64,000 nucleotides of DNA from Clostridioides sp. ES-S-0010-02 (GTDB lineage: Bacteria > Bacillota > Clostridia > Peptostreptococcales > Peptostreptococcaceae). The stretch covers positions 3,527,317 to 3,591,316 of the forward strand of contig CP067345.1 in the NCBI GenBank assembly GCA_020641055.1. The letters run 5' to 3'. The notes under the pieces were generated by a model, which had not been told where the DNA came from, did not search any database, and saw nothing but the letters and a program-made list of their open reading frames with translations. Position 1 is the stretch's first letter, and every line of letters starts with the position of its first letter. The translations under genes were made by a program, and so were the position numbers. This document shows positions 39,333 through 59,512 of the stretch, one piece after another.

Positions 39333-39368
39333 AAAAAATCGCCTATATCAAAATATATAAGCGATTTT
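39333..39368 (-). terminator. Terminator of the cooT/DUF3842/His-rich transcript
   Basis: AAAATCGC/GCGATTTT arms (39335-39342, 39361-39368) are followed on the minus strand by T-rich sequence. It lies 12 bases after the His-rich gene's stop. Confidence 0.85.
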
Positions 39369-39379
39369 AACAATCATAT

Positions 39380-39733
39380 TTACATATGTTTTTTAGCCTC
39401 TAATAACATTTTATTTGCTTCTTCCATACATTCTATAGCTTTTTCAATACTCTTTGCAGTTTCTTCTTTTCCAATAGCTCTAGCCTTTTCTACCCATTCT
39501 CTAAATCCTTCTTCATGAGTCTCATTGTGATTTATCCAATGTACTAAAAGTATTTTTAAAGTTTTCTCATCTTTAGACTCTGATGATTCTTCATGATTAT
39601 GTTCGTGGTCATGGTCATGAGCATGGTCGTGTGGATGTTCATGGCACATATCTCCATGAGTATGTTCATGGCAATGGTCGTCATGGTCATGGTGCCCATG
39701 GTGGTATCTTATAATCTCTCTATCAAACATCAT
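39380..39733 (-). CDS. Histidine-rich putative metal (nickel) chaperone
   Basis: 117 residues. Residues ~11-46 contain 18 histidines and two cysteines alternating with Asp and Glu, a clear divalent-metal-binding tail. Residues ~55-117 are predicted helical (TLKILLVHWINHNETHEEGFREWVEKARAIGKEETA...). It recalls CooJ of Rhodospirillum, where a His-rich tail joined to a helical dimer stores Ni for CO dehydrogenase, but with the His-rich part at the N-terminus. It is the last gene of a three-gene set with CooT and a DUF3842 protein, beside the CODH/ACS cluster, supporting a nickel role (inference). ATG at 39733 follows AGGGGGAA; the next codon is also ATG. Confidence 0.8.
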   Translation of the reverse strand: MMFDREIIRYHHGHHDHDDHCHEHTHGDMCHEHPHDHAHDHDHEHNHEESSESKDEKTLKILLVHWINHNETHEEGFREWVEKARAIGKEETAKSIEKAIECMEEANKMLLEAKKHM

Positions 39734-39748
39734 TAGTTATTCCCCCTG

Positions 39749-40165
39749 TTATTTTATATTAAATTCTTTTTTTATAACATTAACAGAATCTTTTACAAGT
39801 AGTGCTAATGGTTTACCTTCTAATCCAACTAACTCTATATTTTCTGGCATAATAGGTAAAAGTATCTTAAGTGCCTCACTATCTGCAATAGCTTCACTTA
39901 TATTACAAGTGACTTCCCCCATCATAGAATTAGGTATTATTACAGAAATAGGTGCAACTATTATATTGGCTTTTCTAGCTGATACTACTATAGCATTTTC
40001 CCCTGTAGCTCCTTTATTAGCATGAGCCTTCATCATAGAACTAGTTGCTATAGAATTAGTTCCTAGTGCATAAATTTCTACATATGTAGGTAATTCTTCT
40101 CTCAGAGAAGAAACTATCTGGGCTCCTATACCTCCACCCATTCCATCTATCACTGCTATTATCAT
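39749..40165 (-). CDS. DUF3842 family protein
   Basis: 138 residues. The N-terminus MIIAVIDGMGGGIGAQIV forms a Rossmann-like glycine-rich strand-loop-helix, followed by YVEIYALGTNSIATSSMMKAHANKGATGENAIVV and the hydrophobic APISVIIPNSMMGEVT segment. This is the DUF3842 pattern; no biochemical function is known to me. It lies 18 bases after cooT and 15 bases before the His-rich gene, so translation of the three is linked. A role in metal or corrinoid handling for CODH/ACS is suggested by context only. ATG at 40165 follows AGGGGAA. Confidence 0.8.
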   Translation of the reverse strand: MIIAVIDGMGGGIGAQIVSSLREELPTYVEIYALGTNSIATSSMMKAHANKGATGENAIVVSARKANIIVAPISVIIPNSMMGEVTCNISEAIADSEALKILLPIMPENIELVGLEGKPLALLVKDSVNVIKKEFNIK

Positions 40166-40183
40166 ATGAAATTCCCCTATTAA

Positions 40184-40375
40184 TTAATTTTCTTGTATTA
40201 TTATCTTATGGTCCATCAATCTTATTTCTTTAATTATTCCATCTATTATTTTTTGTTCTCCTAATAAATCAGTTAAATAAATCTTTCCATCACAAGGGTC
40301 TATATTAACCACATTCTCCATAACCTTTTCTAATTCATTGTTATTCTTACAAATGAAAGCTGATGATTCACACAT
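40184..40375 (-). CDS. cooT: CooT-family nickel-binding protein
   Basis: 63 residues starting MCESSAF, the CooT signature in which Cys2 of a small beta-rich homodimer binds one Ni(II). The remainder (VVNIDPCDGKIYLTDLLGEQKIIDGIIKEIRLMDHKIII) fits the family. In Rhodospirillum CooT helps nickel insertion into CO dehydrogenase. Here it is the first gene of a cooT, DUF3842, His-rich set located just downstream of the acetyl-CoA pathway genes. ATG at 40375 follows GGAGGAG. A hairpin plus T7 lies about 35 bases upstream of the start, between a candidate promoter and the gene, so attenuation is possible. Confidence 0.85.
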   Translation of the reverse strand: MCESSAFICKNNNELEKVMENVVNIDPCDGKIYLTDLLGEQKIIDGIIKEIRLMDHKIIIQEN

Positions 40376-41341: not shown

Positions 41342-41387
41342 GATTATTACGCCCCAATCTTTAGTATAAACATATTCAAGAAATCAT

Positions 41388-45303: not shown

Positions 45304-45681
45304 TTATTCTAATCCAGCCTCGTATTCTTTATCACTTAATAATGTATCAAGCTCAGCAACATCAGCTAGTTTTACTTTTAATATCCAGTTTTCGTATGGG
45401 TCTTCATTTATACATTCTGGTTCATCTTCTAATTTTTCATTAACTTCTAATACTTCACCATTAACAGGAGATATTAAATCAGAAGCTACTTTAGAAGATT
45501 CAACTACTCCAAAATCTACTCCCTTAGTTACAGTATCTTCTACTTCTGGTGTTTCAACAAATAATATTTCTCCTAATTGATCTTGAGCATAATCTGTTAT
45601 ACCTATATATACAACATCTCCATCAATTACTTTTACCCATTCATGATCTTTAGAGTATTTTAATTCTGGTAATAATTTCAT
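45304..45681 (-). CDS. gcvH: Glycine cleavage system H protein (lipoyl carrier)
   Basis: 125-residue lipoyl carrier. The modified lysine is K64 in GVVESSKVASDLISPV; ISPVNGEVLEVN and NEDPYENWILKV complete the H-protein fold. It shuttles aminomethyl or electrons on lipoate between glycine cleavage proteins. Here it sits at the end of the acetyl-CoA synthase operon, with dihydrolipoyl dehydrogenase in the same operon but no gcvP or gcvT in the window. Those genes must be elsewhere, or this H protein has another role. Start ATG 45681 follows GGGGGT. It is the likely target of the LipM/LipS set downstream. Confidence 0.95.
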   Translation of the reverse strand: MKLLPELKYSKDHEWVKVIDGDVVYIGITDYAQDQLGEILFVETPEVEDTVTKGVDFGVVESSKVASDLISPVNGEVLEVNEKLEDEPECINEDPYENWILKVKLADVAELDTLLSDKEYEAGLE

Positions 45682-45767
45682 TTCGATAGACCCCCAATAT
45701 TATATTATTGATTAATTTATTTAAATCATATTAATATTATATCACATTATTTTAAATTTTCCATCAA

Positions 45768-47894
45768 TTACATTACACTTTCCATAGCTAATGCTGGATG
45801 ACCTTTTTCTTCTAAGAAAGCTAATACTCCTTCAGAATCGTCAGCTATAGTTTCATCACAAATCATATCACAGAAGTTCTCTATTCCAGTCATTTCTTTA
45901 ACTGTAGCATTTAATTTATCAGCTACATAATCTTTTAATTCTTTTGGCATCCAAACTATTCTTTCTGGTCCACCTTCTGCATAAGCGAATTTTTTAGAAG
46001 ATATGAAATGTCTTCCGTGTCCCATGAATCCTGGAGTTTGAACTCCTCCACCTGTCATAGAAGCAAGTTCTCCGAAAGTCATACCAACTGGAGTAACGCT
46101 TGGGAATTCTCTGTTAACTACAACAAATCCATTTGCTTCTGGCATTATACCACAGATACACTCGAAGCATCCACAAGAAGTCATAGGGTCTTCTAATATA
46201 GAGTATAATGTAACAGCTTCAACTGCACCTTGAGATATTTGGTTTACAGTTTCATTTACAGAGTTCCATACACCTGTTCTATCGTCTAAACATTCACCTT
46301 TTTCTATTGGTTGACAAGGACCTGTAGGGTCTAATTCTTTAGTAGCTTTAGCATCTAACCAGCTAACTGCTCCACAAAGACCAAGTCTTTCAGGAGTAAC
46401 AACACAAACGTGAGCTGGTGCAAATGATTGACATAAGTTACAAGAATAGAAAGTCTCTACACTTTCATCAACCAATGAAGCTAATCTCTCATCTCTAGCA
46501 TTGTATTTAGCTATTGCTTCACCTTTTAATTCAGAAACTTTTTCTGCATCTGTAATTATAGTTATTTCACACTTATCAACAACTGATTCAAATTCATCTA
46601 ACATCTTAGCATATAAAACTTCTCCTATATGCTCAAGTCTAAATCCTTTATCAAATGCATCTTTAGAGATTCTTACCCAAGCCATATCTCTTTGTCCAAC
46701 GTGCATTACACCTTCTATATAGTTTAAGAAGTAGTGGAAACGTCTTTCAAGAACTGGTTCGAAATCTTCTTGCATGTTTTTACCAGCTATTTTAACTATT
46801 ACAGCAAGTGGTAATCTTAATACACCATCTGCTTCAACTTCATCTATGTTTGGTCCTATTATTTCTATCTTATGGTCTTCAACTTCAGCAGCTTCTTTCT
46901 TAACAACAAGCTCCCAAGCTTCAGTTTTATTTCCACCAAATTCAGCAAACATGTCGCTCTTTCTAATTCTTTCACCTTCAAATGCTGCTGCAAATGAAAC
47001 TGGTATAGGTATTTCAGTAACTTTTATTTTTATTCCTCTAGCTTCTAATGAAGTAGCTACTATCTTATCATAATCTTTTTGAGTTAATAAATTCATTGGA
47101 ACTTCAAGAACAGTTTGGTCAGTTACAACTGGGAATCCTAAAGCTATTGCTCCAGCACCTGCAGATACAACTAATTCACTTAATGGTCCAAAAGCATTAA
47201 CAAATGCAGGAACTCTATTAGCTGTGTATTCTAATAATCCGTTTAAATCACCAGGAGTTAATCCACCGAATATTAATGCTGCTCTTACTGCAACAGATAC
47301 AACGTGGATAACAGAAGTTACATCATATCCTAGAGGTATAACTCTTAGTTCAAGACCCATTTTTACTCCAGCTTCTATAGCTTGGTCTATAACCTTACCA
47401 ACTAAGAAAGTTAATAAACCTTTAGATTGGTAGTCTTTTATAACTTTTGCTGCTGATTCAGCATCAGGACATTCTCCAAGAACAACTGCAACACCAGGTA
47501 TATCTCCTGTAACTAGTGGTACACCAAGTGATCTGATTATAGGGTCAGTTATATGACCTGCACATGGCTCACTATATGGAGCATCCATAGTTGAGTATTT
47601 TAATGCTTCAATTACTTCTGCAGCTAAAGCAGTAGCTAAACCAGCATTAAAAGCATGTTCTAATAAATGAGTTCTATTGATTAAAGATTTTACTACTTCT
47701 AAAGCACCTTCTAAGTCCCCTAAAGTGTTCATTTTTTGTCCTGTTGCAGCATATATACAAGGTAATGAATATGCTGTATCAGGGAAAGCTACTTTATGTT
47801 CTTTTCCGTTTTTTTCTATAGCTTCATTTAACATAGCTTGAGCTGCACCCAAAGCTTGTTCTGACCCTGTAAAGATTATATTATATAGATTCAT
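45768..47894 (-). CDS. acsB: Acetyl-CoA synthase, catalytic subunit of CODH/ACS
   Basis: Joins CO, the methyl group from the corrinoid protein and CoA at the Ni-containing A-cluster. 708 residues. The A-cluster [4Fe-4S] ligands are C485, C488, C497 and C507 (SCNLCQ...HVCVV...GLCG) and the distal Ni site is the CGC motif near 574-576 (TSCGCFECI). GHGRHFISSKKF and the N-terminal CODH-contact domain (about 1-310) are typical. ATG at 47894 follows AGGGGGAA. It lies between acsE and gcvH. The CO is supplied by CooS encoded ~12 kb upstream. Confidence 0.97.
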   Translation of the reverse strand: MNLYNIIFTGSEQALGAAQAMLNEAIEKNGKEHKVAFPDTAYSLPCIYAATGQKMNTLGDLEGALEVVKSLINRTHLLEHAFNAGLATALAAEVIEALKYSTMDAPYSEPCAGHITDPIIRSLGVPLVTGDIPGVAVVLGECPDAESAAKVIKDYQSKGLLTFLVGKVIDQAIEAGVKMGLELRVIPLGYDVTSVIHVVSVAVRAALIFGGLTPGDLNGLLEYTANRVPAFVNAFGPLSELVVSAGAGAIALGFPVVTDQTVLEVPMNLLTQKDYDKIVATSLEARGIKIKVTEIPIPVSFAAAFEGERIRKSDMFAEFGGNKTEAWELVVKKEAAEVEDHKIEIIGPNIDEVEADGVLRLPLAVIVKIAGKNMQEDFEPVLERRFHYFLNYIEGVMHVGQRDMAWVRISKDAFDKGFRLEHIGEVLYAKMLDEFESVVDKCEITIITDAEKVSELKGEAIAKYNARDERLASLVDESVETFYSCNLCQSFAPAHVCVVTPERLGLCGAVSWLDAKATKELDPTGPCQPIEKGECLDDRTGVWNSVNETVNQISQGAVEAVTLYSILEDPMTSCGCFECICGIMPEANGFVVVNREFPSVTPVGMTFGELASMTGGGVQTPGFMGHGRHFISSKKFAYAEGGPERIVWMPKELKDYVADKLNATVKEMTGIENFCDMICDETIADDSEGVLAFLEEKGHPALAMESVM

Positions 47895-47950
47895 TCTATT
47901 TCCCCCTTTAATATTTACACCTATTTTTTATTAACTATACCCTAAAAACC

Positions 47951-48757
47951 CTAGAAAGCAAATCCACCTTCATTTAACTCTAAGAAAGAGTCTGCATATA
48001 AAGATGCCCCGTTGATTATGTCACAAGATTTTACAGTTTTCATTAATTCTGGGTCACATGGATTCATTATAGCTGAACTAAATCCATTAGCCATTGCCAT
48101 TGCTAAGAATGCACTATCTAAAACAGGTCTAACATGTTTAGGACATCCATTAGATACATTAGATAATCCTCCTGTAGTTAAAAGTCCCATTTCAGTCATC
48201 ATCTTTATAGCTTCTAAAACTTCTACTTGTTTTTCTTGCATACCTTTTATAACTAAGCATAATGGGTCAAATAATATATCAGTTGGCTCCATTCCTAGCA
48301 TTAAGCCTTTTTCTAGTATCTCTTGGCAGTAAGCCATACGTTCATCATTATCTCTTGGGATACCTTCTTTTGCACATAAACCTATAACCATTGATTCATA
48401 TTCAGCTGCTATATCTATTAAATCAAATCTTGAACCAGCATCAGCAGAGTTTATTATTGGTTTTGCATTAGTTCTATCATAAACCTTAAGTCCAGCTTCG
48501 ATAGCTTTTTTATTAGCTGTATCTAATGCTATAGGAACATTGTTAAATTCAGATTGAAGTAGCTTAACTCCCCATGTCATTATCTCTTCGCCATCTCTTT
48601 CAGCAGGCCCTATATTGAAATCTATATAGTGTGCTCCTGCTTCTAATTGTTCTTTTGCTCTTTTTAATATTGGAGCTGGATCTCTTTCTGCTAATGCCTT
48701 TCTTATTGAAGGTGAGATACAGTGTATTCTTTCACCTATAATCATAAATTTTTCCAT
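47951..48757 (-). CDS. acsE: Methyl-THF:corrinoid iron-sulfur protein methyltransferase
   Basis: Moves the methyl group from 5-methyl-tetrahydrofolate to Co(I) of AcsCD. 268 residues, pterin-binding TIM barrel: GERIHCISPSIRKAL at the N-terminus, HYIDFNIGPAERDG, IALDTANKKAIEAGL, PIINSADAGS, and GLSNVSNGCP near the C-terminus with the catalytic Asn context. ATG at 48757 has GGGGGAC nine bases upstream. Operon order acsC, acsE, acsB fits the substrate chain. Confidence 0.96.
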   Translation of the reverse strand: MEKFMIIGERIHCISPSIRKALAERDPAPILKRAKEQLEAGAHYIDFNIGPAERDGEEIMTWGVKLLQSEFNNVPIALDTANKKAIEAGLKVYDRTNAKPIINSADAGSRFDLIDIAAEYESMVIGLCAKEGIPRDNDERMAYCQEILEKGLMLGMEPTDILFDPLCLVIKGMQEKQVEVLEAIKMMTEMGLLTTGGLSNVSNGCPKHVRPVLDSAFLAMAMANGFSSAIMNPCDPELMKTVKSCDIINGASLYADSFLELNEGGFAF

Positions 48758-48806
48758 TTATAATGTCCCCCTTTAAATTTAATATTAATAGTTAGTTAAT
48801 ATTTTA

Positions 48807-50174
48807 TTAGTTTGTTTGGCATGCTTTTTCTTGGTATCCTTTTAAGAACTTAGGTAATTCCATAGATTCTTCTGGTCCTATAACTACATTCCATCCTGGT
48901 AAGTTATCTTCTATATCACCTTTAAGTACTGCAACTTTTCCTGGGATGATAATGTCTTTACAATTAGTTACTTCTTCTACTTTACTTTCTTTGATGAAAG
49001 CAGAGATTGAATTTCCACCAAATTTACCAGCAGCCCAAGATGTAAGAACTGAATATCCACCTGCATCTGGTATTACTAACCATACTGGAACTTTTGATCT
49101 TTCTATATCTCCAGCAACTATGAAATAAGTTAATGCAAAGTCAACAGTAACTAATACTGGAGAATTTTCATCTGGGTTATTAATTGGGTAAATCTTTGGT
49201 TCAACTCTCATTGGTCTTTGTGGGTCAGTGTATATATTTTGTCTTAATGCAAATAATGGTAATGCTTTAGCATAACTAATATCATCTATTACTATTATAG
49301 AACCATATTTTATAGTAAATATTGATGATAAAGCAATTTCCATCATAGGATTTGAGTTAGATAATCTATTTGCAAATACTATTGAAGGATATCCAAATGT
49401 TCTATCTTGTTCTTTTAAAGCTATTCTTCTAACTTGCACAGCATTAGTGTAAGTATCTTTTATATTTTCTCCAGTTACATCTAATACTAATTCTTTATAT
49501 CCAGCAGATTGAACTAATTCAACTGTTTCATATAATTCTTCTAAGCTAGCTGCTTTTACTCCTAATGGTAGGTTTGCTCCTTTAACTACTTCTATCATAT
49601 CTTTGTAGTTATCTTTAGTTGCTCCATATACCATTGGTCTAGCATCTTTTAATACTTCAACAGCTTCTTTAACTGCTTGTGCATCATCACAAGCTAAAAT
49701 ATAAGCTACTTCTAATCCGCTACCTTTTATTTTGTCTATTAGTTTTAAATATGCATCTTTGTCTCCACAGTATTCTAAAACAACCATTTCAACTTTCATT
49801 TGTTCACCAATTCTTATATAGTCAACTTTTTTCATGTTAGCTATTTTAGCGTCTACTGCTTCATCACTCATACAAGTACAGAATGAAACTGCATATCTAT
49901 TTCTACTTACTAATGTTTTTTCATGTCTAAATAATACTGTTTCCCCGCCTAGTTCATATTCAGATGCTCCAGTACCAACTTTTAATGCTTTCATTAAAGG
50001 TGCTGTAGCTTCTGATAGTTTTGCTATAGCGTCATCAGACATATGTGGGCATTTGCCTACTTCTACAGCTCCTGAAGCAACCTTCATAGAGAAAGCCATA
50101 CAAGTTGGGAATCCACAATCCTTACAGTTTTTCTTTGGTGTTAATTTAAATATATCTAAAGCTTTTAATGCCAT
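48807..50174 (-). CDS. acsC: Corrinoid iron-sulfur protein large subunit
   Basis: Large (gamma) subunit of the methyl-carrying corrinoid iron-sulfur protein, 455 residues. N-terminal [4Fe-4S] motif CX2CX4CX16C at C17, C20, C25 and C42 (KNCKDCGFPTC...KCPHM). A TIM-barrel middle (about 80-310) and a C-terminal cobamide-binding domain (FIVAGDIERSKVPVWLVIPDAGGYSVLTSWAAGKFGG). ATG at 50174 follows AGGGGGAGA. Works with AcsD, encoded directly upstream, as a heterodimer that accepts methyl from AcsE and gives it to AcsB. Confidence 0.96.
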   Translation of the reverse strand: MALKALDIFKLTPKKNCKDCGFPTCMAFSMKVASGAVEVGKCPHMSDDAIAKLSEATAPLMKALKVGTGASEYELGGETVLFRHEKTLVSRNRYAVSFCTCMSDEAVDAKIANMKKVDYIRIGEQMKVEMVVLEYCGDKDAYLKLIDKIKGSGLEVAYILACDDAQAVKEAVEVLKDARPMVYGATKDNYKDMIEVVKGANLPLGVKAASLEELYETVELVQSAGYKELVLDVTGENIKDTYTNAVQVRRIALKEQDRTFGYPSIVFANRLSNSNPMMEIALSSIFTIKYGSIIVIDDISYAKALPLFALRQNIYTDPQRPMRVEPKIYPINNPDENSPVLVTVDFALTYFIVAGDIERSKVPVWLVIPDAGGYSVLTSWAAGKFGGNSISAFIKESKVEEVTNCKDIIIPGKVAVLKGDIEDNLPGWNVVIGPEESMELPKFLKGYQEKACQTN

Positions 50175-50204
50175 TATTTTCTCCCCCTAACCTTAACAAT
50201 TTAA

Positions 50205-51149
50205 TTAAGCTAATGCGTTAACCAATTCTTTTATAGTTTCTATTGATTTTGGATGACGAAGTATAACTGCGTTTGAACCACCTACTAAAACACTTGCTGC
50301 AGTTGAAACTTCCATTGCTATAGTTCTTTCTTCTGGACAACCCCAATCTGGCTCATCTTCTACTGGAGCTATAGCTTCTTTAACATGACCTACTTCGAAA
50401 GCTACTGGTGTTATGATAGGCATTTGTAATGTCTTATCATTTTGACCAAATGCTGCAAGTCTAATTCTATCCATAGTAGATGCAACATATTCATATCCAT
50501 AACCAACTGCTGAACATCCAACATTCATAACTATATTTTCACCTTTAACGCCTAATTGAGTTAACAGTACGTTTAATTGTTTTGCTAGGTTTATATCAAC
50601 AGAAGATTCTGCTCCAACTTTGTGTGAATAAGCCATTCCAGCTGATGCTCCTACTCCTTTGTAGTTATCTTCTACTGCTGACATAAATAGACAGTTATGC
50701 CCATCCAACGCTTGAGCTAATTTTTCAAACAGTTTACCATCTTTTTCATGATTTCCTGAACCAGCTACTACTAAAGGCAATGTTATTGCTTCAACTACTG
50801 CTTTAGCAACTTCAGCACAGTCATCAACTGATTTATCTAATCCATTTGGGTCAGAACCATCAAATTTTAAACAAATAAAATCTGCTTGTGTATTAGCTTC
50901 AACATATTTAGCCCATTCTACTGGACAATTAGCTACATCTTTGTATAACTCTTTATATGAATCAGTCCAGCTTTCAGGATAAACGTCTGATATTTCTATA
51001 CCTATTTTTGGAGTATTCCCTACTTCTCCATCAAAACTATAAAAAGGTAATACATTTTCCCCACCTAATTTAATTGCTTTTTCCCCTATTCCTACTTCAA
51101 CTTCTGATATTTTTCCAGAATATTTTTGAGTAGACATTTTAAATGCCAT
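50205..51149 (-). CDS. acsD: Corrinoid iron-sulfur protein small subunit
   Basis: Small (delta) subunit of the corrinoid iron-sulfur protein, 314 residues forming a TIM barrel that caps the cobamide together with AcsC. Segments ENVLPFYSFDGEVGNTPKIGIEI, ADFICLKFDGSDPNG, PLVVAGSGNHEKDG and YEYVASTMDRIRLAA are characteristic. No iron-sulfur motif, as expected. ATG at 51149 follows AAGGGGGAA. It lies 30 bases upstream of acsC in transcription order. Confidence 0.95.
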   Translation of the reverse strand: MAFKMSTQKYSGKISEVEVGIGEKAIKLGGENVLPFYSFDGEVGNTPKIGIEISDVYPESWTDSYKELYKDVANCPVEWAKYVEANTQADFICLKFDGSDPNGLDKSVDDCAEVAKAVVEAITLPLVVAGSGNHEKDGKLFEKLAQALDGHNCLFMSAVEDNYKGVGASAGMAYSHKVGAESSVDINLAKQLNVLLTQLGVKGENIVMNVGCSAVGYGYEYVASTMDRIRLAAFGQNDKTLQMPIITPVAFEVGHVKEAIAPVEDEPDWGCPEERTIAMEVSTAASVLVGGSNAVILRHPKSIETIKELVNALA

Positions 51150-51168
51150 ATTTTTTTCCCCCTTAAGC

Positions 51169-51939
51169 CTATTTTAATTCTAATTTAGCAAAAATCTCTT
51201 TCATAGCCACTTTAGATTTTGAATCTTCAGGTAAATTAACTAAAGGAATACCTGTAGAATCATATTCATATATCAATTCATCCATAGGTACAACACCAAT
51301 TAGCTCTAGGTTATGTTTTTCTATTTCCTCTTTAACACCATCATTCATAACCCCATTTGGAACCTTATTTACAATTAGAAGTATTCTTCCAACATTTAAT
51401 TTTAGTTCCTCAGCTAAATCTCTTATTCTAGCAACAGCTTGTATGCTACGTCTTGAGCAATCACTAACCAATAAAAGTGTATCAACATGTCTAGTAACTT
51501 TTCTGCTTAGATGTTCCATACCAGCTTCGTTGTCCATGACTAAGTATTTGTAGTGACCAGATATTTTGTTTACTTGTTCTCTAAGTATCCCATTTACAAA
51601 ACAGTAACATCCTTCCCCTTCTGATCTCCCCATTACTAACAAGTCATATCCTTCTCCTTCTTCAATTATAGAATTTAATCTAAATTGTAGATATTGTGCT
51701 TTTGTCATACCACCTGGGAATGCATTGCCTAACTTTTCTCTTTGATTTACTTCTTCTCTTATTTCTCCTATTGTTGCTTCAACTTCAATACCTAATACTT
51801 CATTTATGTTAGCATTAGCATCAGCATCTACAACTAATACTGGTCCCTTATTGTCCTTAACCAAATAATCAATCAAAAGCCCTGTGAGACTTGTTTTACC
51901 AGTTCCACCTTTTCCTGCAACAGCTATATTGTATCCCAT
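51169..51939 (-). CDS. acsF: CooC-type nickel-insertion ATPase for acetyl-CoA synthase (AcsF)
   Basis: MinD/CooC-type P-loop ATPase of 256 residues. Deviant Walker A GKGGTGKTS, switch I VVDADANANINEVLG, and a MGRSEGEGCYCFVN segment with the two cysteines (CYC) that bind Ni in CooC dimers. It lies within the acs operon between lpdA and acsD, which suggests loading of the ACS A-cluster, while the other CooC next to cooS serves CODH. ATG at 51939 follows AAGGGGGAA. Residues in the CxC loop are intact. Confidence 0.9.
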   Translation of the reverse strand: MGYNIAVAGKGGTGKTSLTGLLIDYLVKDNKGPVLVVDADANANINEVLGIEVEATIGEIREEVNQREKLGNAFPGGMTKAQYLQFRLNSIIEEGEGYDLLVMGRSEGEGCYCFVNGILREQVNKISGHYKYLVMDNEAGMEHLSRKVTRHVDTLLLVSDCSRRSIQAVARIRDLAEELKLNVGRILLIVNKVPNGVMNDGVKEEIEKHNLELIGVVPMDELIYEYDSTGIPLVNLPEDSKSKVAMKEIFAKLELK

Positions 51940-51994
51940 TTTAAGACTTCCCCCTTAAATCTAGCCACAGAGCCTTATGTACTCTGTTTACTTA

Positions 51995-53380
51995 TTATAA
52001 TTTAGGTACAGAATGAACACATTCTCCATGTACATCATGAAGTGCTTCCATTAGTCCTTCAGATAAACTTGGATGTGGATGTATTGCATCCCCTACTTGT
52101 TCTACAGTTAATCCTAGATGAACAGCAAGTGATAACTCTGTTAATAAATCTGTAGCATGAGGACCTACTACTGCTGCACCTATTATTTTATCTGTTTCTT
52201 TATCAGCTATTATTTTTACAAATCCTTGGAAATGTCCTATAGCCTGTGCTTTTCCAAGTCCTCTAAAATCAAATTGACCTACATTGTATTCTACACCTTC
52301 AGCTTCAAGTTGTTTTTCAGTTTTACCAACACCAGCAACTTCAGGTTCAGTATAAACACATCTTGGAATTGCTCTATAATCTACTACTTTAGTTTTTCCT
52401 AAAGCATTTTCAACTGCAACAATACCTTCTTTAGAAGCAACATGTGCTAAGAAAGGAGTATCTATTATATCACCTATTGCATATATACCTTCTACATTAG
52501 TTTCAAGATGCTCATTAACTACTACTTTTCCTCTTTCCATTTCAATTCCTATATCTTCTACTCCAGAATTATCAAGGTTAGGTCTTCTACCAACACATAC
52601 TAATGCATATTGTGCTTCTATAACCTTTCCATTAGAAAGAGTTGCAACAGCTTTACCATCAACTACTTCACAAGTTTGTACTCCAATACCTGTAATAACT
52701 TTAATCTTATCTTTCTTAAATTGTCTAAGTAGTTGTTTTGCTACATCTTTATCTTCATTTAATAGTATCTGGTCAACCATTTCAACTATAGTTACTTCTG
52801 TTCCTAAGGCTCTAAAGAATTGCCCTATTTCACATCCTATAACTCCACCACCTACTATTAACATAGATTCAGGTATATCTTCAAGTCCAAGAACTTCATC
52901 ACTAGTTATTACAATCTTTCCATCATATGGGAACATTCTTGGTACAACTGGAACAGAACCATTAGCTAGTATTATCTTATCAGCTTTTATAGATTCTACT
53001 GTTCCATCATCTTTTGTTACTTCTATAGTATTTTTATCAATTAATTTTCCAAAACCATTAACTAGTTTTACTCCTCTTTTCTCAAATAGGAATTCTATAC
53101 CACTTATTAATTGATTTACAACTTTATTTTTTCTTTCCATTATGGCAGTGAAATTTGGTGTAACTGTACCATCTATCTCTATACCAAAATCCTTTGCTTC
53201 CTTCACAGTATTTAATACCCCTGAAGAAGCAAGAAGTGCTTTAGTTGGTATACATCCTGCATTTAAGCAAGTTCCTCCAACTCTTCTTTTTTCAACAACT
53301 GTCACCTCTGCACCAAGCATAGAAGCTTTTATAGCTGCTACATATCCTCCTGGTCCACCACCTACTACTACTATTTTCAT
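51995..53380 (-). CDS. lpdA: Dihydrolipoyl dehydrogenase
   Basis: FAD disulfide oxidoreductase of 461 residues that reoxidises dihydrolipoamide with NAD+. FAD-binding VVVGGGPGGYVAA at the start, redox disulfide GGTCLNAGCIPTKA, NAD-binding VGGGVIGCEIGQFF, CVGRRPNLD, YAIGDI, and the C-terminal catalytic HPHPSLSE. I choose ATG at 53380, preceded by GGGGGAATT. It sits between metF and acsF in the methyl-branch operon, with gcvH downstream. The partner lipoyl protein in this window is GcvH; direct coupling to MetF or to glycine metabolism is unproven. Confidence 0.93.
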   Translation of the reverse strand: MKIVVVGGGPGGYVAAIKASMLGAEVTVVEKRRVGGTCLNAGCIPTKALLASSGVLNTVKEAKDFGIEIDGTVTPNFTAIMERKNKVVNQLISGIEFLFEKRGVKLVNGFGKLIDKNTIEVTKDDGTVESIKADKIILANGSVPVVPRMFPYDGKIVITSDEVLGLEDIPESMLIVGGGVIGCEIGQFFRALGTEVTIVEMVDQILLNEDKDVAKQLLRQFKKDKIKVITGIGVQTCEVVDGKAVATLSNGKVIEAQYALVCVGRRPNLDNSGVEDIGIEMERGKVVVNEHLETNVEGIYAIGDIIDTPFLAHVASKEGIVAVENALGKTKVVDYRAIPRCVYTEPEVAGVGKTEKQLEAEGVEYNVGQFDFRGLGKAQAIGHFQGFVKIIADKETDKIIGAAVVGPHATDLLTELSLAVHLGLTVEQVGDAIHPHPSLSEGLMEALHDVHGECVHSVPKL

Positions 53381-53421
53381 CCTTAATTCCCCCAAACCTT
53401 ATAATCTACAATCTTGTAATA

Positions 53422-54303
53422 CTATAAACCTGCGGCATCTAGTATAGCAGGTATATTTTCTTCTGCCCCAATTGCCATTATATGAACACCATCACATAAA
53501 TCTTCTTCTTTTAATTGTTTGATAAGTTCTCCTGCCATTTTTATTCCTTCACTTACCCAGTTTTCTTTTCCAGCTGCTCTTAATCTTTCGATTTGTTCAT
53601 CTGGCACAAATATTCCTGGTACATTTGCAGTCATAAATTTAGCCATTCCTGGAGATTTTAAAGGTACTATCCCTGCCAATACCTTGCAATCCATATCTCT
53701 TGTTAGTTCTCTAAACCTTCTCATTGTATTTATGTCATAAAGTGCTTGAGTTTGGAAAAATTTAGCTCCAGCTTTTATTTTCTTTTGCATTTTTAATAAT
53801 TGAACTTCTATTGGAGAATATTCTGGAGTTACTGATGCTCCTAGATAAAAATCTGGAGAACCTTTTAATTTATTACCAGCCATATCCGTACCTGCCATTA
53901 GAGTTTCAGCAGTTTGAAGTATCCCTACAGAGTCTAAATCAAATACACCTTTAGCTTGTGGATGGTCTCCTACGCTAGTATGGTCTCCTGTTAATGCCAA
54001 CAAGTTGTTTATCCCAAATACACCTGCTGACAACATTTCTCCTTGTATAGCTATCCTATTTCTATCTCTCCCTGTTATTTGAATCACTGGCTCTAATCCA
54101 GCATCTTTTAGTAATTTACATGTAGCAAGAGAAGTTGCTCTCATAACTGCTGATTGAAAGTCTGTCACATTTGCTGCATGAACTCTTCCAACTAACGGCT
54201 TTGCACATTCAATTAAATGTGAAAGGTCAGTCCCTTTTGGAGGAGCCATCTCAGTAGTAACTGCAAATTTTCCACTCTCTAATGTTTCTCTTAATAAGCT
54301 CAT
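53422..54303 (-). CDS. metF: Methylenetetrahydrofolate reductase, MetF subunit
   Basis: FAD protein that reduces 5,10-methylene-THF to 5-methyl-THF, 293 residues. FAVTTEMAPPKGTD holds the catalytic Glu, and LALTGDHTSVGDHPQAKGVFD, AKFFQTQALYD and LAGIVPLKSP follow; the same order is found in acetogen MetF. ATG at 54303 follows AAAGGGGGAT. It follows metV by 35 bases, so the enzyme is the MetVF type, in which MetV replaces a direct NADH site. The electron donor is not evident from sequence. Confidence 0.95.
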   Translation of the reverse strand: MSLLRETLESGKFAVTTEMAPPKGTDLSHLIECAKPLVGRVHAANVTDFQSAVMRATSLATCKLLKDAGLEPVIQITGRDRNRIAIQGEMLSAGVFGINNLLALTGDHTSVGDHPQAKGVFDLDSVGILQTAETLMAGTDMAGNKLKGSPDFYLGASVTPEYSPIEVQLLKMQKKIKAGAKFFQTQALYDINTMRRFRELTRDMDCKVLAGIVPLKSPGMAKFMTANVPGIFVPDEQIERLRAAGKENWVSEGIKMAGELIKQLKEEDLCDGVHIMAIGAEENIPAILDAAGL

Positions 54304-54338
54304 CTCTAATCCCCCTTTTAACCTTCTAAAAAAAACTT

Positions 54339-55013
54339 TTATGAATTGGCTGTTGCTTCTTTCTTTTTCTTTGCACTTAAGCTTCTTGGATTATTTTGCT
54401 TAGAATAGTCTTTTGGTGGTCTTATTTCTGCTAAATTATCTAATTGGCCTATAGATTCCAATCTTTCATATATTTTTATCCAAGCACAATCATTTTCTGG
54501 ATTTACTTCACATTTACCATTTTTAGCTCCACCACAAGCCCCATTCATAAGACCTTTAGCACACATAGTTACTGGACATATTCCACCTGTCCAACCAAGT
54601 TCACAGTCTCCACAAGCCTTACAGGCTTCCTCATATTCTCCAACCCTTTGTACTTCCCCTATAAACAAAGTGTTGTTAGCTGGATAAACTGGTTTATTTT
54701 TTAGGTTTTTAACTATTGTTTGTGTCCCATCTCCACATGCTAAAGATAAAACTGCATCAGCTTCTTTAGTTTCTTCTTTTAGAGCCTTTAAGTCCTTTTT
54801 AGACTTTAAAAGGTTACAAGCAGGATCAAGCATTACATATCCTAAGATTTTTTTGCCCTCACCTTCAAGAGTTTCCTTCATTTTTAGAACTTCTTCTTCT
54901 CCACCACTCTTACAAGTCGCTGCACATTGATTACAACCAACTAAAACTAGCTTGTCAAAATTCTTTAAGTACCCTAGCACTTCTTCCAATGGTTTATTTT
55001 CAGAAATTATCAT
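54339..55013 (-). CDS. metV: MetV, iron-sulfur/zinc subunit of methylene-THF reductase
   Basis: 224 residues, cysteine-rich MTHFR C-terminal-domain protein that forms the electron-input subunit with MetF. An N-terminal half with VLVGCNQCAATCKSGGEEEV and LDPACNLL is followed by a second group of cysteines (ACKACGDCELGWTGGICPVTMCAKGLMNGACGG...CEVNPENDCAWI) that can bind [4Fe-4S] or zinc. ATG at 55013 follows GGGGGGAAG. Found upstream of metF in acetogens and related clostridia. The basic tail (about residues 205-224) is unusual but harmless. Confidence 0.93.
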   Translation of the reverse strand: MIISENKPLEEVLGYLKNFDKLVLVGCNQCAATCKSGGEEEVLKMKETLEGEGKKILGYVMLDPACNLLKSKKDLKALKEETKEADAVLSLACGDGTQTIVKNLKNKPVYPANNTLFIGEVQRVGEYEEACKACGDCELGWTGGICPVTMCAKGLMNGACGGAKNGKCEVNPENDCAWIKIYERLESIGQLDNLAEIRPPKDYSKQNNPRSLSAKKKKEATANS

Positions 55014-55044
55014 ATCTACTTCCCCCCTAAACCTTCCACAATAT

Positions 55045-55917
55045 CTATTTATTGTTTTGCAACTTACAAGCTTTAACTACATGTTTTGCAAGTATAGATG
55101 TTGTAACTGAACCAACCCCCGCTGGAACTGGAGTTATCATCGATACTTTATTTAAAACTGCATTTGTATCAACATCTCCACATAAATTTCCTTCTTCATC
55201 AACATTTATACCAACGTCTATAACTACTGCTCCATCTTTCACAAAACTTTCATCTACCATCTTAGCTCTACCAATAGCTGCTATCAATACGTCCGCTTCT
55301 GCAGCTACATCTGATAAGTTTTTAGTCTTTGAATGGCATATTGTAACAGTTGCATGTTCACTTAATAAAAGCATTGATACTGGCTTCCCAACTACCATTG
55401 ATCTTCCAAGAACTGTTACCTTACTTCCTTTTAAATCAACATTATAATGTTTTAATATTTCTACTACTGCTGTAGGAGTACATGGTGGGAATCCACTCTT
55501 ATCTCCTTCCATGACTTTAGCAGAGTTTATTGGGCTAAAACAATCTACATCTTTTTCTGGTGCAATGACATATTTTATAACTTCTTCATTTAAGTGTTTT
55601 GGAAGTGGTCTAAAACATAATATACCATTAACATCCTTGTCATCATTAACTTTCTTTAAAACATCAATATATTCTTCTTGAGTTATATCTTCAGCTAATT
55701 CCAACACTTCAGTTGTTATACCAATGTTTTGACATCTTTTTAGTGCTCCTCTTTCATATGATAAATCATCGCTTCTTGCTCCAACTCTAACTATTGTTAG
55801 CTTAGGATTTATACCTTCTTTAACTAGTAACTCGACTTCTTTTATTAAGTCTTCACTAATCTTATCAGCTACAGGTTTTCCTTTTATAATCTGTCCTTTA
55901 GTTGACATTACTTCCAT
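55045..55917 (-). CDS. folD: Methylene-THF dehydrogenase / methenyl-THF cyclohydrolase FolD
   Basis: Bifunctional NAD(P)-dependent enzyme of the methyl branch, 290 residues. The active-site lysine lies in the SYERGALKRCQ segment of helix 1-2; NGILCFRPLPKHLNE is the folate contact, PCTPTAVVEIL the conserved cis-Pro loop, and VTVLGRSMVVGKPVSMLLLSEHATVTICHSKT the nucleotide-binding site. ATG at 55917 after GGGGAG; a second ATG at 55908 is possible. A separate cyclohydrolase FchA is encoded just upstream, as in other acetogens. Confidence 0.95.
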   Translation of the reverse strand: MEVMSTKGQIIKGKPVADKISEDLIKEVELLVKEGINPKLTIVRVGARSDDLSYERGALKRCQNIGITTEVLELAEDITQEEYIDVLKKVNDDKDVNGILCFRPLPKHLNEEVIKYVIAPEKDVDCFSPINSAKVMEGDKSGFPPCTPTAVVEILKHYNVDLKGSKVTVLGRSMVVGKPVSMLLLSEHATVTICHSKTKNLSDVAAEADVLIAAIGRAKMVDESFVKDGAVVIDVGINVDEEGNLCGDVDTNAVLNKVSMITPVPAGVGSVTTSILAKHVVKACKLQNNK

Positions 55918-56008
55918 ATATTCACAACTCCCCTACAAGCAAACTTAAATTAATTTATTCTATATACCACATATTAATAACATAGTATCTACTTTCGTCA
56001 TTTAAAAA

Positions 56009-56641
56009 TTATTTTCCAAGCGCTTTTTCAACTTTAGCATAAACTTCATCACAAGTTTTAACGCCATCTTCAACTAATTTATCTACTTCTGTTTTTACTT
56101 TACTAACATACTCTTGATCTTGTATAGAATTTATATTTATAACTACATTTAATTGTCCACCAAGTATAGCAGCTCTTAAACATTGAACCCCTACACCAAC
56201 GTCGCTTATAGCAAGTCTTGAACCTTTATCAACTAAATCTTCATGTAACTTAATAGCTTCATAACAAACTCTTACTATATTTAATGGTACTTCACAAGCA
56301 ACTTTTAGCGCTTTTTCCATTGTTTCTGCTTTTATTCTTTTTTCCTCTTCTGTTTCTTTAGGAAGCCCATAAGCTTTTGATAATGGTAAGAAACATTCTG
56401 CATCATCATCTATCATTTTTAATAAATCTTTTTCTAATTTTCCTGCTTTATTTAATATATCTTTTACACTTTCTTCATACTCAGCATACTTTTTCTTTCC
56501 TATTGTAAGATTGCATACCATACTCCCTAAAGCCATACCAATTGCACCAACTAGTGCGGCAGCTCCACCGCCACCTGGTACTGCTTCTTTAGAAGATAGT
56601 ACTTCTACAAAATCAACACAAGTTTTATCTGCTATTTTCAT
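56009..56641 (-). CDS. fchA: Methenyltetrahydrofolate cyclohydrolase FchA
   Basis: Converts 5,10-methenyl-THF and 10-formyl-THF, 210 residues. The FTCD/cyclodeaminase-like fold is seen from DFVEVLSSKEAVPGGGGAAALVGAIGMALGSMV to SRLAISDVGVGVQCLRAAILGGQLNV. FchA supplies strong cyclohydrolase activity in acetogen clusters. ATG at 56641 follows AAGGAGGA. It is 84 bases after fhs, separated by a hairpin that may affect mRNA stability. Confidence 0.94.
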   Translation of the reverse strand: MKIADKTCVDFVEVLSSKEAVPGGGGAAALVGAIGMALGSMVCNLTIGKKKYAEYEESVKDILNKAGKLEKDLLKMIDDDAECFLPLSKAYGLPKETEEEKRIKAETMEKALKVACEVPLNIVRVCYEAIKLHEDLVDKGSRLAISDVGVGVQCLRAAILGGQLNVVININSIQDQEYVSKVKTEVDKLVEDGVKTCDEVYAKVEKALGK

Positions 56642-56662
56642 GATAATCCTCCTTAAAAGGAT

Positions 56663-56702
56663 GTAGGAAAATATCCTAAATTATCTTAGAGATATTTCCT
56701 AC
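56663..56702 (-). repeat. Intra-operon hairpin between fhs and fchA
   Basis: GTAGGAAAATATC (56663-56675) pairs with GATATTTCCTAC (56691-56702) with one bulged base. On the minus strand it is followed by ATCCTTTT, so weak termination or RNA processing could lower downstream expression. Confidence 0.6.
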
Positions 56703-56725
56703 TCTTTATTTATAAATTAATACAC

Positions 56726-58402
56726 TTAGAATAATCCAGCTATTACTCCATTTTCATCAACATCTATTTTTTCTGCTGCTGGAACTTTTGGTAATCCTGG
56801 CATTTTCATTATTTCTCCAGTAAGTGCAACTATAAATCCAGCTCCTGCTGAAATTGATGCTTGTCTTACAGTTATTCTAAATCCTGTTGGTCTACCTAAT
56901 TTAGTTTGGTCATCAGTTAAAGAATATTGAGTTTTAGCCATACATACTGGAACTTTAGTAAATCCAAGTTTTTCTAAGTTAGCTATTTCTTTATCAGCTT
57001 CTGGAGTATAATCTACACCATCTGCTCCATAAATCTTAGTAGCTATAGCATTTATCTTATCTTTTATAGATAAATCATCTTCATAGCAGAATCTAAAATT
57101 ATTTTCTTCTTCATCTAATAATCTTAAAACTTCTTTAGCTACTGCAATTCCACCTTCTCCACCTTTTGCCCATACTTCAGAAAGAGCAACATTAACGCCT
57201 AATTCTTTACACTTGTCTTCAACAAGTTTAAGTTCAGCTTCAGTATCAAGTGGGAATCTGTTTATTGCAACAACTGCTGGTAATCCATATACTTGAGTTA
57301 TGTTTTCAACATGTTTTAATAAGTTTGGAAGTCCTTTTTCAAGAGCTTCTAGATTTTCTTCGTTTAAGTCTGCTTTAGCAACTCCACCATTGTATTTTAA
57401 TGCTCTTACAGTAGCAACTATTATAACAGCATCTGGTTTTAAGTTTGCCATTCTACATTTTATATCTAAGAATTTTTCTGCTCCAAGGTCAGCACCGAAA
57501 CCAGCCTCAGTTATTACATAATCTGCAAAGTGCATAGCCATTCTTGTAGCTATAACAGAGTTACATCCATGAGCTATATTTGCAAATGGTCCACCATGTA
57601 CAAATGATGGTGTTCCTTCAAGAGTTTGAACTAGGTTTGGTTTTAAAGCATCTTTTAATAATGCAGCCATAGCACCATTAGCTTTTAATTGTCTAGCTGT
57701 TACAGGTGCACCTTCGTAGCTATATCCAACTATTATGTTTCCTAATCTTTCTTTTAAGTCAGCTATATCACTTGCCAAACAGAACGCTGCCATTATTTCA
57801 GAAGCAACAGTTATATCAAATCCATCTTGTCTAACTGCTCCATCGCCTTTTTTACCCATACCATCAACGATATTTCTAAGTTGTCTATCGTTCATGTCTA
57901 CACATCTTCTCCAAGTTATTTTCTTAGGGTCTATTCTAAGTTCATTTCCTTGATGAATATGATTGTCAAGCATAGCAGCTAAAAGGTTATTAGCAGCTCC
58001 TATAGCATGAAAGTCTCCTGTGAAGTGTAAGTTTATATCTTCCATAGGAACAACTTGTGCATATCCTCCACCAGCTGCCCCACCTTTAACACCAAATACT
58101 GGTCCTAGAGATGGTTCTCTTAAAGCAACTAATACATTTTTATCTAATTTTGCAAATGCATCAGCAACACCGATAGTAGTAGTAGTTTTTCCTTCACCTG
58201 CTGGAGTTGGGTTTATAGCTGTAGTTAATATTAACTTAGCTTTTTTCCCAGTTTCTCTTTTTAGTAGATTGTAGTCAACTTTGGCTTTGTATTTACCATA
58301 TAGTTCTACATCTTCTTCACCTAGTCCTAATTTTTTTGCAACCTCTCTAATATCTTGAGGTTTAGCTTCTTGAGCTATTTCAATGTCAGATTTAAATCCC
58401 AT
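56726..58402 (-). CDS. fhs: Formate--tetrahydrofolate ligase
   Basis: ATP-dependent entry step of formate into the methyl branch. 558 residues. P-loop [10 protein letters not shown] at about 66-75, [33 protein letters not shown], and the C-terminal [37 protein letters not shown] are diagnostic. I choose ATG at 58402, nine bases after GGGAGGAG. It begins the long methyl-branch/acs operon after a terminator that ends the cooC transcript. Formate could come from PflB in this window. Confidence 0.97.
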
Positions 58403-58517
58403 AACTGAATCTCCTCCCACAACCTAAATAGATTTAAAATATAATTTTTGTATAAATTGTATTAATATGTAAAAATTATATTTTATAAGATAATTATACA
58501 TGTAAAATTGCTTAAAA

Positions 58518-58561
58518 ACTAGCTACTAAGCTATTAAAATATCTTTAACTTAATAGCTAGT
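58518..58561 (-). terminator. Terminator between cooC and fhs
   Basis: ACTAGCTA-c-TAAG (58518-58530) pairs with CTTA-a-TAGCTAGT (58549-58561). On the minus strand T5 follows. It separates cooC from the fhs operon, leaving about 115 bases upstream of fhs for its own promoter. Confidence 0.8.
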
Positions 58562-58643
58562 CATTTATCTAATTAATCATTTATTACCTATCTAATACCT
58601 ATTTATTGCCTTTAACCAACAACCCAATTATAAATCAAAATTT

Positions 58644-59423
58644 CTATTTATCTTTAAGTGACATTAATTTCTCTTTTATTTCTTTAATTTGTGCCTTTGT
58701 TGTTTCACTAGAATCATATGGAGATTGATTAGCTCTATCAGAATCTATAACATCTTGATTGTAATAGATAAATCCTAAAGATTCCCCATCTTCTAAGTTT
58801 TGTATTATAAATTCTTCATCTTCTTTATTTCTGATTTTGTTACCTACAACAAATACCTTATTTACGCCTATATCATGACCAAGTTTTTTAACTTTTCTAT
58901 ATGTTTGGAGACTTCTTTCTCCTGGCTCTACAACTACTATAAAAGCATCTACACCTTGAGCTGTTCCTCTTCCTAAGTGTTCAATTCCAGCTTCCATATC
59001 CATAACAACTACATCTTTATTTTGTAGTATTAAGTGTGAACAGAGTCTTTTTAAAAGAACGTGCTCTGGACATACACATCCAGTGCCACCAGAATCCACT
59101 GTTCCTAATGTAAGTAATCTCACTCCGTTGTATTCTTTACAGAAATTTTCAGGTATATCGTCTACTTTAGGATTCATCTTAAACATTTTTCCAAATGAAC
59201 CTACAGAAGCAGCTGTTCTATCTGAAACTAACTTTTTCATTTCTGATATAGGTACTATTGATTCATATACTTCTTTTGGAAAACCTAGTGCTAAAGCTAA
59301 ATTAGCATCAGGATCGGCATCAACAGCAACAACTCTGTATCCGTCTTCAGCAAACATCCTAGAGAGCATTGAAGAAAAAGTCGTTTTACCTACTCCACCT
59401 TTACCTGTTATTGCTATCTTCAT
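58644..59423 (-). CDS. cooC: CooC, nickel-insertion ATPase for CO dehydrogenase
   Basis: MinD-like ATPase of 259 residues. Walker A GKGGVGKTT, VVAVDADPDANLALALG, the Ni-binding CXC in TGCVCPEHVLLKR, and DMEAGIEHLGRGTAQGVD. It delivers nickel to the C-cluster of CooS, encoded upstream. I choose ATG at 59423, which follows AAAGGTGGTAGGG; the frame extends to a GTG within that SD. A 300-base gap with a hairpin separates it from cooS. Confidence 0.93.
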   Translation of the reverse strand: MKIAITGKGGVGKTTFSSMLSRMFAEDGYRVVAVDADPDANLALALGFPKEVYESIVPISEMKKLVSDRTAASVGSFGKMFKMNPKVDDIPENFCKEYNGVRLLTLGTVDSGGTGCVCPEHVLLKRLCSHLILQNKDVVVMDMEAGIEHLGRGTAQGVDAFIVVVEPGERSLQTYRKVKKLGHDIGVNKVFVVGNKIRNKEDEEFIIQNLEDGESLGFIYYNQDVIDSDRANQSPYDSSETTKAQIKEIKEKLMSLKDK

Positions 59424-59512
59424 AATCCCTACCACCTTTATTACTATTTGCTTTTTATTTTATTTATGTTTTAGTGTAGTTATCTATTTTTTAAACACTA
59501 AAAATAAACTAC

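Follow-up and report, generated by a model that had tools for sequence, protein, structure and literature searches.

A CooT, DUF3842 and CooJ-like gene trio as a candidate nickel-supply end of a Clostridioides carbon monoxide dehydrogenase/acetyl-CoA synthase operon

Introduction

By which route does nickel reach carbon monoxide dehydrogenase/acetyl-CoA synthase (CODH/ACS) in acetogens? This question is unsettled, and it is raised in directly testable form by three small genes in a 64,000-nucleotide stretch of Clostridioides sp. ES-S-0010-02 (GenBank assembly GCA_020641055.1, contig CP067345.1, positions 3,527,317 to 3,591,316 of the forward strand; hereafter the window). The trio, which forms the terminal part of a minus-strand CODH/ACS cluster, consists of:

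40184..40375, minus strand: CooT-family small protein, 63 aa, with a Met-Cys start (MCESSAF); PF10133 and the solved CooT 6fan
39749..40165, minus strand: DUF3842 protein, 138 aa, with a predicted Rossmann-like alpha/beta fold and the Gly-rich loop DGMGGGIG; PF12953 and AlphaFold2
39380..39733, minus strand: CooJ-like His-rich protein, 117 aa, with an N-terminal His tail followed by a helical hairpin; weak profile match to 6hk5
Parts of the CooJ-like protein: tail at residues 11-47 (18 His, 2 Cys), helices at 54-86 and 90-116, HWINHNETH at 65-73

These genes lie where an original prediction, made from the letters of the window, had placed a compact nickel-maturation module, and compact they are, with 18 bp separating CooT from DUF3842 and 15 bp separating DUF3842 from the His-rich gene. 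What CooT and CooJ do is called unclear in PMC6006190. The analysis described here leads us to regard the trio as probably, although with confidence not far above even, the nickel-supply end of the CODH/ACS operon, in which CooT and a Rossmann-like DUF3842 would form a nickel-trafficking pair and the CooJ-like protein would serve as a store.

Results

The His-rich protein and its possible kinship to CooJ

The His tract of the third protein comprises 18 His and 2 Cys within 37 residues and is followed by a helical domain, so that the counts of the original prediction held. Its densest 36-residue stretch contains 17 His, compared with 8 in the next best of the window (256 six-frame stretches of at least 50 residues). 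Pfam offered no family for this protein up to E 1, and NCBIfam returned a single chance-level match (E 0.11). Two alignments were built from its relatives: A1, of nine CooJ-like proteins, and the larger A4, which took in the window protein and 22 of the 42 CooJ-like rows (40 distinct proteins) from fetched loci. Pfam searches with the 23 rows of A4 gave weak matches of single members only, and a PDB sequence search with the single CooJ-like domain found at best a designed protein (E 0.022). When A1 was compared with the PDB, Rhodospirillum rubrum CooJ (6hk5_B) came third, at 14.2 bits and E 0.32, among the eight matches with E no higher than 10; the alignment spans positions 14-72 of 79 and brings the motif HWxxHxxxH (HWINHNETH in the window) into register with HFLDHVEGH. 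A pre-specified single-target hhalign comparison with 6hk5 gave P values of 0.0016 (A4) and 0.00038 (A1), and none of 400 shuffles of the CooJ core reached the real score with either core profile, over 18 (A4) and 50 (A1) aligned columns.

In R. rubrum CooJ the HWX2HX3H site binds nickel at the dimer interface, and CooJ homologues, of which Alfano reportedly described 46 in 2019, share H(W/F)X2HX3H beside a C-terminal His tail. The motif is present in the window protein as HWINHNETH. The tract is N-terminal, and because a C-terminal tail was looked for and not found, the protein is named CooJ-like here and not canonical CooJ. Across the nine rows of A1, H65, W66, H69 and H73 are invariant; H65 reaches at least 90% in A4, and a second Trp, W80, is conserved in the CooJ-like alignments. 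With a His tract defined as at least 5 His in 20 residues, the tract stands before the core in 20 of the 42 rows and after it in none. AlphaFold2 modelled the N-terminal half with low confidence, as disordered, and a two-helix hairpin with high confidence (64 residues with a predicted local distance difference test score, pLDDT, of at least 90). Four named Acetobacterium loci encode two CooJ-like proteins apiece: a copy adjoining acsB, in which 35-53 His precede the motif, and a tail-less copy adjoining DUF3842. The protein therefore looks, as far as its sequence goes, like a CooJ relative with reversed domain order, and the prediction of a rearranged CooJ-like protein fared well in that the core aligns, albeit weakly, to 6hk5, outscores all 400 shuffles and lies behind its His tract.

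The distribution of this gene was surveyed by searching A1 in 73 of 321 Clostridia genomes, comprising all 37 with CooT and 36 without; the seed is biased, as its proteins came from loci fetched for DUF3842, CooT or acsB. Genomes counted for acsB number 18, after removal of three of 21 (G007, G223, G313) with short frames and 25-43 bits. A CooJ-like gene was found in 14 of the 73 genomes: 14/37 with CooT versus 0/36 without (p 2.7e-5), and 13/18 with acsB versus 1/55 others (p 1.3e-9). Seven of these 14 genomes had supplied A1; without them the counts are 7/30 versus 0/36 for CooT (p 0.0026) and 6/11 versus 1/55 for acsB (p 3.3e-5). G223, the lone CooJ-like genome that lacks acsB, shows no more than a short and weak CdhC match. 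The original prediction held that frequent occurrence in genomes lacking CODH/ACS would tell against it, and for the His-rich gene the survey of these 73 genomes found the reverse, with CooT present in 14 of 14 and acsB in 13 of 14. In Fervidicola and Thermovorax, CbiM, a tail-less CooJ-like gene, CooT and DUF3842 form a single run, and CODH/ACS matches are absent for 10 kb around it; the CooJ-like gene is therefore not strictly tied to CODH operons. A plasmid search for CooJ found none. As a separate observation, loci L102, L103 and L104 carry, away from CODH, another CooT accompanied by a CooJ-like gene that lacks the tail; in L104 this pair is divergent from an oxidoreductase set (TPP/POR domains) that also includes an ACT protein and AMP-binding ligases, and the open reading frames of L103 resemble those of L104 in size and order.

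CooT and its pairing with DUF3842

The CooT of the window matches PF10133 over profile positions 1-60 of 60 (E 7.2e-25, 87.5 bits against a cut-off of 27) and the solved CooT 6fan (E 1.3e-7), and a Met-Cys start is found in 82/82 distinct CooT frames of the scanned loci. Among the 321 genomes, CooT occurs in 18/18 with acsB, and 19 of the 37 CooT genomes lack acsB. Among the matches listed and with phylogeny ignored, LarC accompanies CooT in 35/37 genomes versus 97/284 others and is present in 18 of the 19 that have CooT but no acsB; LarC was found in 143 genomes, of which 11 weak cases (E > 1e-30) were removed, leaving 132. According to a review (PMC6006190), R. rubrum CooT binds one Ni per dimer with nanomolar affinity, Cys2 is involved in this binding, and 85 of 111 CooT homologues lie in proteomes with CODH, counts that agree with the occurrence of CooT outside CODH genomes seen here. 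CooT in Wood-Ljungdahl contexts has been noted previously (PMC6344411).

The DUF3842 protein is a full-length member of PF12953 (E 1e-51, 175.1 bits against a cut-off of 28.5). Its family was found in 105 of the 321 genomes, of which 93 lack acsB and 70 lack CooS over its curated cut-off (above which 57/146 CooS genomes were counted, among the matches listed). DUF3842 is thus common without CODH/ACS, the very outcome that the original prediction had said would speak against it, and the claim that DUF3842 is a CODH/ACS maturation factor did not survive. What does recur is adjacency to CooT. Where both occur in a genome, no more than 127 bp separate the CooT match from that of DUF3842 at 30/32 sites (29/30 genomes). 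A set of 80 named loci, the best 80 of 536 relatives and so those nearest the window protein, includes three Clostridioides difficile records, with at least one genome also in the survey (L138 / G296). In 54 of these 80 loci a same-strand CooT lies no more than 1.5 kb away, downstream in 36 and upstream in 18, the records being labelled as Bacillota, Nitrospirota, Thermodesulfobacteriota, Myxococcota and Chloroflexota; CODH/ACS genes are in reach in 15/80. No mention of DUF3842 by name was found in the literature searched.

In a DUF3842 tree, with labels assigned by the 1.5 kb rule and near-copies kept, 15 of the 17 CODH-context rows fall within one 16-row clade (99/98) that includes C. difficile and Acetobacterium. 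Of the other two, L149 joins Thermovorax/Fervidicola (100/100); L047 is placed elsewhere in the tree. The DUF3842 frame of L008/L037 has an internal stop and was excluded from alignments A2 (19 of 28 DUF3842 sequences) and A3, the tree using only the part before the stop. In L037 (genome G025) it is one of two DUF3842 copies that has the internal TGA, and this copy adjoins a stop-free CooT frame. It was further observed that in 12 Clostridia loci (L059, L060, L065-L067, L069-L071, L085-L087, L089) a CooT-less DUF3842 adjoins a putative energy-coupling factor-type S component, its identity read from the sequence, and that in 8 of the 12 there is also a kinase-like protein (c11), in many cases encoded on the other strand.

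The predicted fold of DUF3842

AlphaFold2, supplied with 65 sequences, predicted alternating strands and helices for DUF3842 (pLDDT 95.2; predicted template modelling score 0.90). In an alignment of the window protein with 64 of 71 non-redundant rows there are 19 invariant columns, including D7, G8, G10-12, G14, G35, N37, A40, T41, G52, A53, G55, G83 and E84. These invariant residues are found mostly where strands 1-3 end and in the loop that follows strand 4, positions that, in the model, would correspond to the usual ligand site of Rossmann-like proteins. Foldseek returned four PDB matches at E of 0.001 or below (UbiX-like, FtsZ twice, ArnA), all nucleotide- or flavin-binding; no template modelling (TM) score exceeded 0.53 in the 50 rows listed, and the best PDB sequence match had an E of 0.031.

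Two assignments to known enzyme types were considered and rejected. Proteins of the FtsZ/tubulin type have a characteristic fold and a second Gly-rich (T4) loop. For DUF3842 as such a GTPase, TM scores were 0.46 or below in the rows listed, hhalign gave P 0.0039 over 33 columns only, and a second GGG loop is absent from A2. Similarity to malate-dehydrogenase-like enzymes using nicotinamide adenine dinucleotide (P 1.6e-4, 68 columns) was attributed to a common Rossmann start, that is, a generic nucleotide-binding loop.

Nickel and cobalamin neighbourhoods

Neighbours of DUF3842 were read by eye for CbiM, LarC and acsB at 107 sites. CbiM lies within 5 kb at 11/107, ten of them CooT-adjacent, where about 0.2 would be expected by rough arithmetic (no random-window control). 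A PDGLE extension, which marks nickel-type (NikMN) transporters, is present in all 11 of these CbiM proteins and absent from the one other examined, that of L100, where the CooT close by has no DUF3842. PMC11247825 makes mention of NikMN fusions. LarC lies within 5 kb at no fewer than five, i.e. at least 5/107, sites (two CooT-adjacent) and acsB within 10 kb at 7/107, and 18/30 CooT-adjacent sites have at least one of the three near. In L147 a single run comprises DUF3842, CooT, LarE, LarB, LarC, CbiM, EcfT and CbiO. Among the 54 named CooT pairs, 19 lie near CODH/ACS (15), CbiM (3) or lar (2, one also with CbiM).

Cobalamin genes form a second kind of neighbourhood. Nine of the 80 named DUF3842 loci adjoin cob genes (at least 2 within 8 kb), and CooT is present in 0/9; CobU, CobQ/CbiA-type, CbiB and CobS were confirmed by Pfam in single representatives. 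A cobalamin riboswitch lies downstream of DUF3842 in 6/6 cob loci having one, three of the nine giving none, and DUF3842 therefore lies outside the riboswitch-controlled unit. In L036/L037 the CooT-DUF3842 pair adjoins an ATP-binding cassette (ABC) transporter and genes read from the sequence as cobalamin-synthesis genes.

The trio in its operon

Upstream of CooT, the same minus-strand run continues through the following features, with a terminator-like element at its far end:

39336..39371 (approximate bounds), minus strand: terminator-like hairpin 3' of the CooJ-like gene, from folding of 39330-39382
40526-41341, minus strand: LplA
41388-42338, minus strand: LipS2
42323-43195, minus strand: LipS1
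43263-45191, minus strand: AcsV/RACo corrinoid activator (NF040756)
45304..61643, minus strand: Wood-Ljungdahl cluster, open reading frames from gcvH to cooS
45768-47894, minus strand: acsB (PF03598 match there)
59724-61643, minus strand: cooS (TIGR01702 match there)

Within the cluster stand genes that we take to be gcvH, acsE, acsC, acsD, a CooC-like ATPase, lpdA, metF, metV, folD, fchA, fhs and a second CooC-like ATPase. The end of LplA is 150 bp from CooT. The hairpin, with its U-run, 3' of the third gene has a folding energy of -14.6 kcal/mol (z -4.2), and 0/200 shuffles were equally stable. A promoter scan gave 32 promoter-like sites versus 41.0 in shuffles, so that the site at 40519-40490 upstream of CooT is not evidence of a promoter, and an Rfam search of window positions 38000-64000 gave no match. 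The nearest named relatives of the window DUF3842 protein, in the three C. difficile records, are 97-98% identical and have the same gene order, which supports the species assignment; the order CooT, DUF3842, CooJ-like is also found in named C. difficile, Romboutsia, Tepidibacter, Geosporobacter, Acetobacterium and Eubacterium records, with the CODH/ACS genes of Geosporobacter beside the trio but on the opposite strand.

Several further features of the region were noted. LplA, LipS1 and LipS2 (40526-43195) stand between AcsV and CooT, and an LplA match (confirmed by Pfam for L198 only) follows DUF3842-CooT in five Nitrospirota loci (L166, L189, L193, L198, L208) with CODH not in reach. Adjoining the module, at 37276-38154, is a DUF4300 protein; at 36212-36724 lies a secreted-looking protein of 170 aa in which KFKVVLDDEFTKEEVNGAKGIIKTT occurs twice as an internal duplication, and for which Pfam gave no match. 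Beside the Wood-Ljungdahl region, at 30776-35853, a DeoR-type regulator, a EutH-family transporter, an FGGY kinase and a class-V aminotransferase are grouped, possibly as a small-molecule catabolic set.

Discussion

Taken as a whole, the results allow a model of nickel supply to CODH/ACS to be proposed. Imported Ni(II) may be received by the flexible N-terminal His/Cys tail of the CooJ-like protein, where such a tail is present, and the HWX2HX3H motif of the hairpin would form a putative second nickel site, the protein thereby acting as both store and carrier. From this store the metal could pass to CooT, a small nickel-binding dimer using Cys2, and onward to a client. A small ligand, most probably a nucleotide, would bind to DUF3842, and this protein would either charge CooT with nickel or gate and time its release. 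Nickel binding by these copies, the order of transfer, and the ligand and gating role of DUF3842 are all steps that we infer. The client may vary by genome, being CODH/ACS in the window and nickel-pincer LarA systems elsewhere. The CooC-like ATPases of the cluster may assist the insertion step, a role taken from PMC6006190.

A number of observations weigh against this model. Kinship to CooJ, as argued from sequence, draws on the motif register, one pre-specified comparison and gene order, the core similarity being weak; with the larger profile A4, 6hk5 is absent from the PDB matches up to E 10, and a Foldseek search with the CooJ-like model placed 6hk5 outside its top 50, all of which are other helical proteins. 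The CooJ-like co-occurrence tests ignore phylogeny. Five of the 14 CooJ-like genomes (G063, G163, G223, G226, G295) match weakly (23-30 bits) and carry HL or lack the strict motif; in G063, G163 and G226 the weak matches are on contigs other than that of acsB or at a distance from it, beside a second CooT; in 5/18 acsB genomes, two of them 72-73% complete, no CooJ-like gene was found. DUF3842 has no invariant His or Cys, which counts against direct nickel binding, and it was rejected as a direct nickel binder on this ground. It is absent from 6/18 acsB genomes, and CODH/ACS therefore does not need it. In the 75 genomes with DUF3842 and without CooT, neither LarC (24/75 vs 73/246, p 0.77, among the matches listed) nor long CbiM (3/75 vs 17/246, p 0.58, or 0.43 with G137 added) is associated; CbiM was found in 101 genomes and kept in 90, long ones (frame of at least 320 aa) numbering 42 plus G137 (frame 421). 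Of the named loci, 14/80 have none of the scored contexts, and 35/54 CooT-DUF3842 pairs have no CODH/ACS, CbiM or lar match in reach, a count that covers those families only, with clostridial queries and some short contigs. The family is not uniform, and the nickel reading is limited here to CooT-paired DUF3842s, for which a nickel accessory role would be the best reading of the analysis.

Three rival explanations have to be set beside this. Were DUF3842 a factor dedicated to the maturation of CODH/ACS, it would be understandable that 15 of 17 CODH-context DUF3842s make their own subclade, and that in C. difficile, Romboutsia, Tepidibacter and Acetobacterium the gene has CooT on one side and the CooJ-like gene on the other. 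However, the 93/105 DUF3842 genomes without acsB, on which a CODH-only factor was rejected, the 70 without CooS among the matches listed, and the six acsB genomes without DUF3842 already refute such a role for the family as a whole, and in the named loci CODH/ACS is in reach in 15/80 versus CooT in 54/80; this dedicated role seems to us improbable, the least favoured of the three. A cobalt or corrinoid factor, for example a protein that binds a ligand of cobinamide or of the nucleotide loop, which here would serve the corrinoid protein activated by AcsV, is unlikely in a slightly lesser degree. AcsV does belong to the operon of the window, nine named loci carry at least two cob genes within 8 kb, and the L036/L037 pair stands beside an ABC transporter and putative cobalamin-synthesis genes. 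CooT, however, is missing from all nine cob loci, the riboswitch is downstream of DUF3842 in all six where one was found, and the 11 CbiM neighbours are of the PDGLE type, which is the nickel type.

It may also be that the trio are mere neighbours, DUF3842 being a housekeeping Rossmann protein whose adjacency to CooT is an inherited order without function. This agrees with the 75/105 DUF3842 genomes that lack CooT and show no correlation with LarC, and with the 35/54 named pairs that lack a scored nickel-related match nearby. Inherited order alone would sit less easily with an adjacency seen in both orders (36 downstream, 18 upstream) in records from five phyla, and recurring in transporter, lar and CODH contexts; we rate this explanation as unlikely, much as the corrinoid one and if anything a shade more so. 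Of the predicted roles of DUF3842 in CODH/ACS maturation or as a cobalamin or nickel accessory factor, then, the nickel part survives as a candidate role for CooT-paired members, the CODH/ACS part falls, and the cobalamin part is left weak.

With the nickel-supply model preferred, a bolder form of it can be conceived, which we regard as a tentative minority possibility. CooT and DUF3842 would then be a widespread and hitherto unnamed nickel-transfer pair, in which a nucleotide-sensing DUF3842 times the release of nickel by CooT to CODH/ACS, Lar or other clients, with the reversed CooJ added chiefly where CODH/ACS requires a store of its own. If true, CooT would serve bacteria in general as a nickel carrier, instead of being an accessory protein of CODH. 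What the analysis adds is DUF3842 as a concrete small neighbour of CooT, with a genomic context and a predicted fold; a link of CooT to the nickel-pincer pathway, and of some of the pairs to metal import; and reversed-order CooJ-like proteins in acetogen operons, unannotated by Pfam and NCBIfam. The trio could aid the heterologous production of active CODH/ACS.

Comparison with known systems

A 2026 report locates CooJ in CODH operons of clade E that are linked to one-carbon metabolism and lists 68 potential CooJ genes found by PSI-BLAST (PMC13056359), a set that may well include the CooJ-like genes described here; the main text of that report contains none of the words "N-terminal", "histidine" or "DUF". 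A description of a reversed CooJ order was not found in the accessible parts of the literature searched on CooJ with CooT or nickel, histidine-rich proteins and Acetobacterium. The window protein resembles R. rubrum CooJ (6hk5) in its small size, CooT in the neighbourhood, predicted helical core, aligned HW/F-X2-H-X3-H motif and separate His-rich tract. It differs in that the tract of R. rubrum CooJ is in the C-terminal domain (PMC6006190), whereas that of the CooJ-like protein is N-terminal, and in that the CooJ-like family includes tail-less paralogues and a conserved W80. The window CooT agrees with known CooT proteins, that of R. rubrum and the solved 6fan, in its Met-Cys start and a family score far over the cut-off, but in the window it is followed by DUF3842 and then by the CooJ-like gene. 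With proteins of the HypA/HypB and UreE type the CooJ-like protein shares a His-rich extension, which in those proteins is nickel-binding, yet it has no visible GTPase domain or UreE fold and accompanies CooT, mostly in acsB genomes. The module is a variant of known nickel-chaperone modules, together with a named neighbour for CooT.

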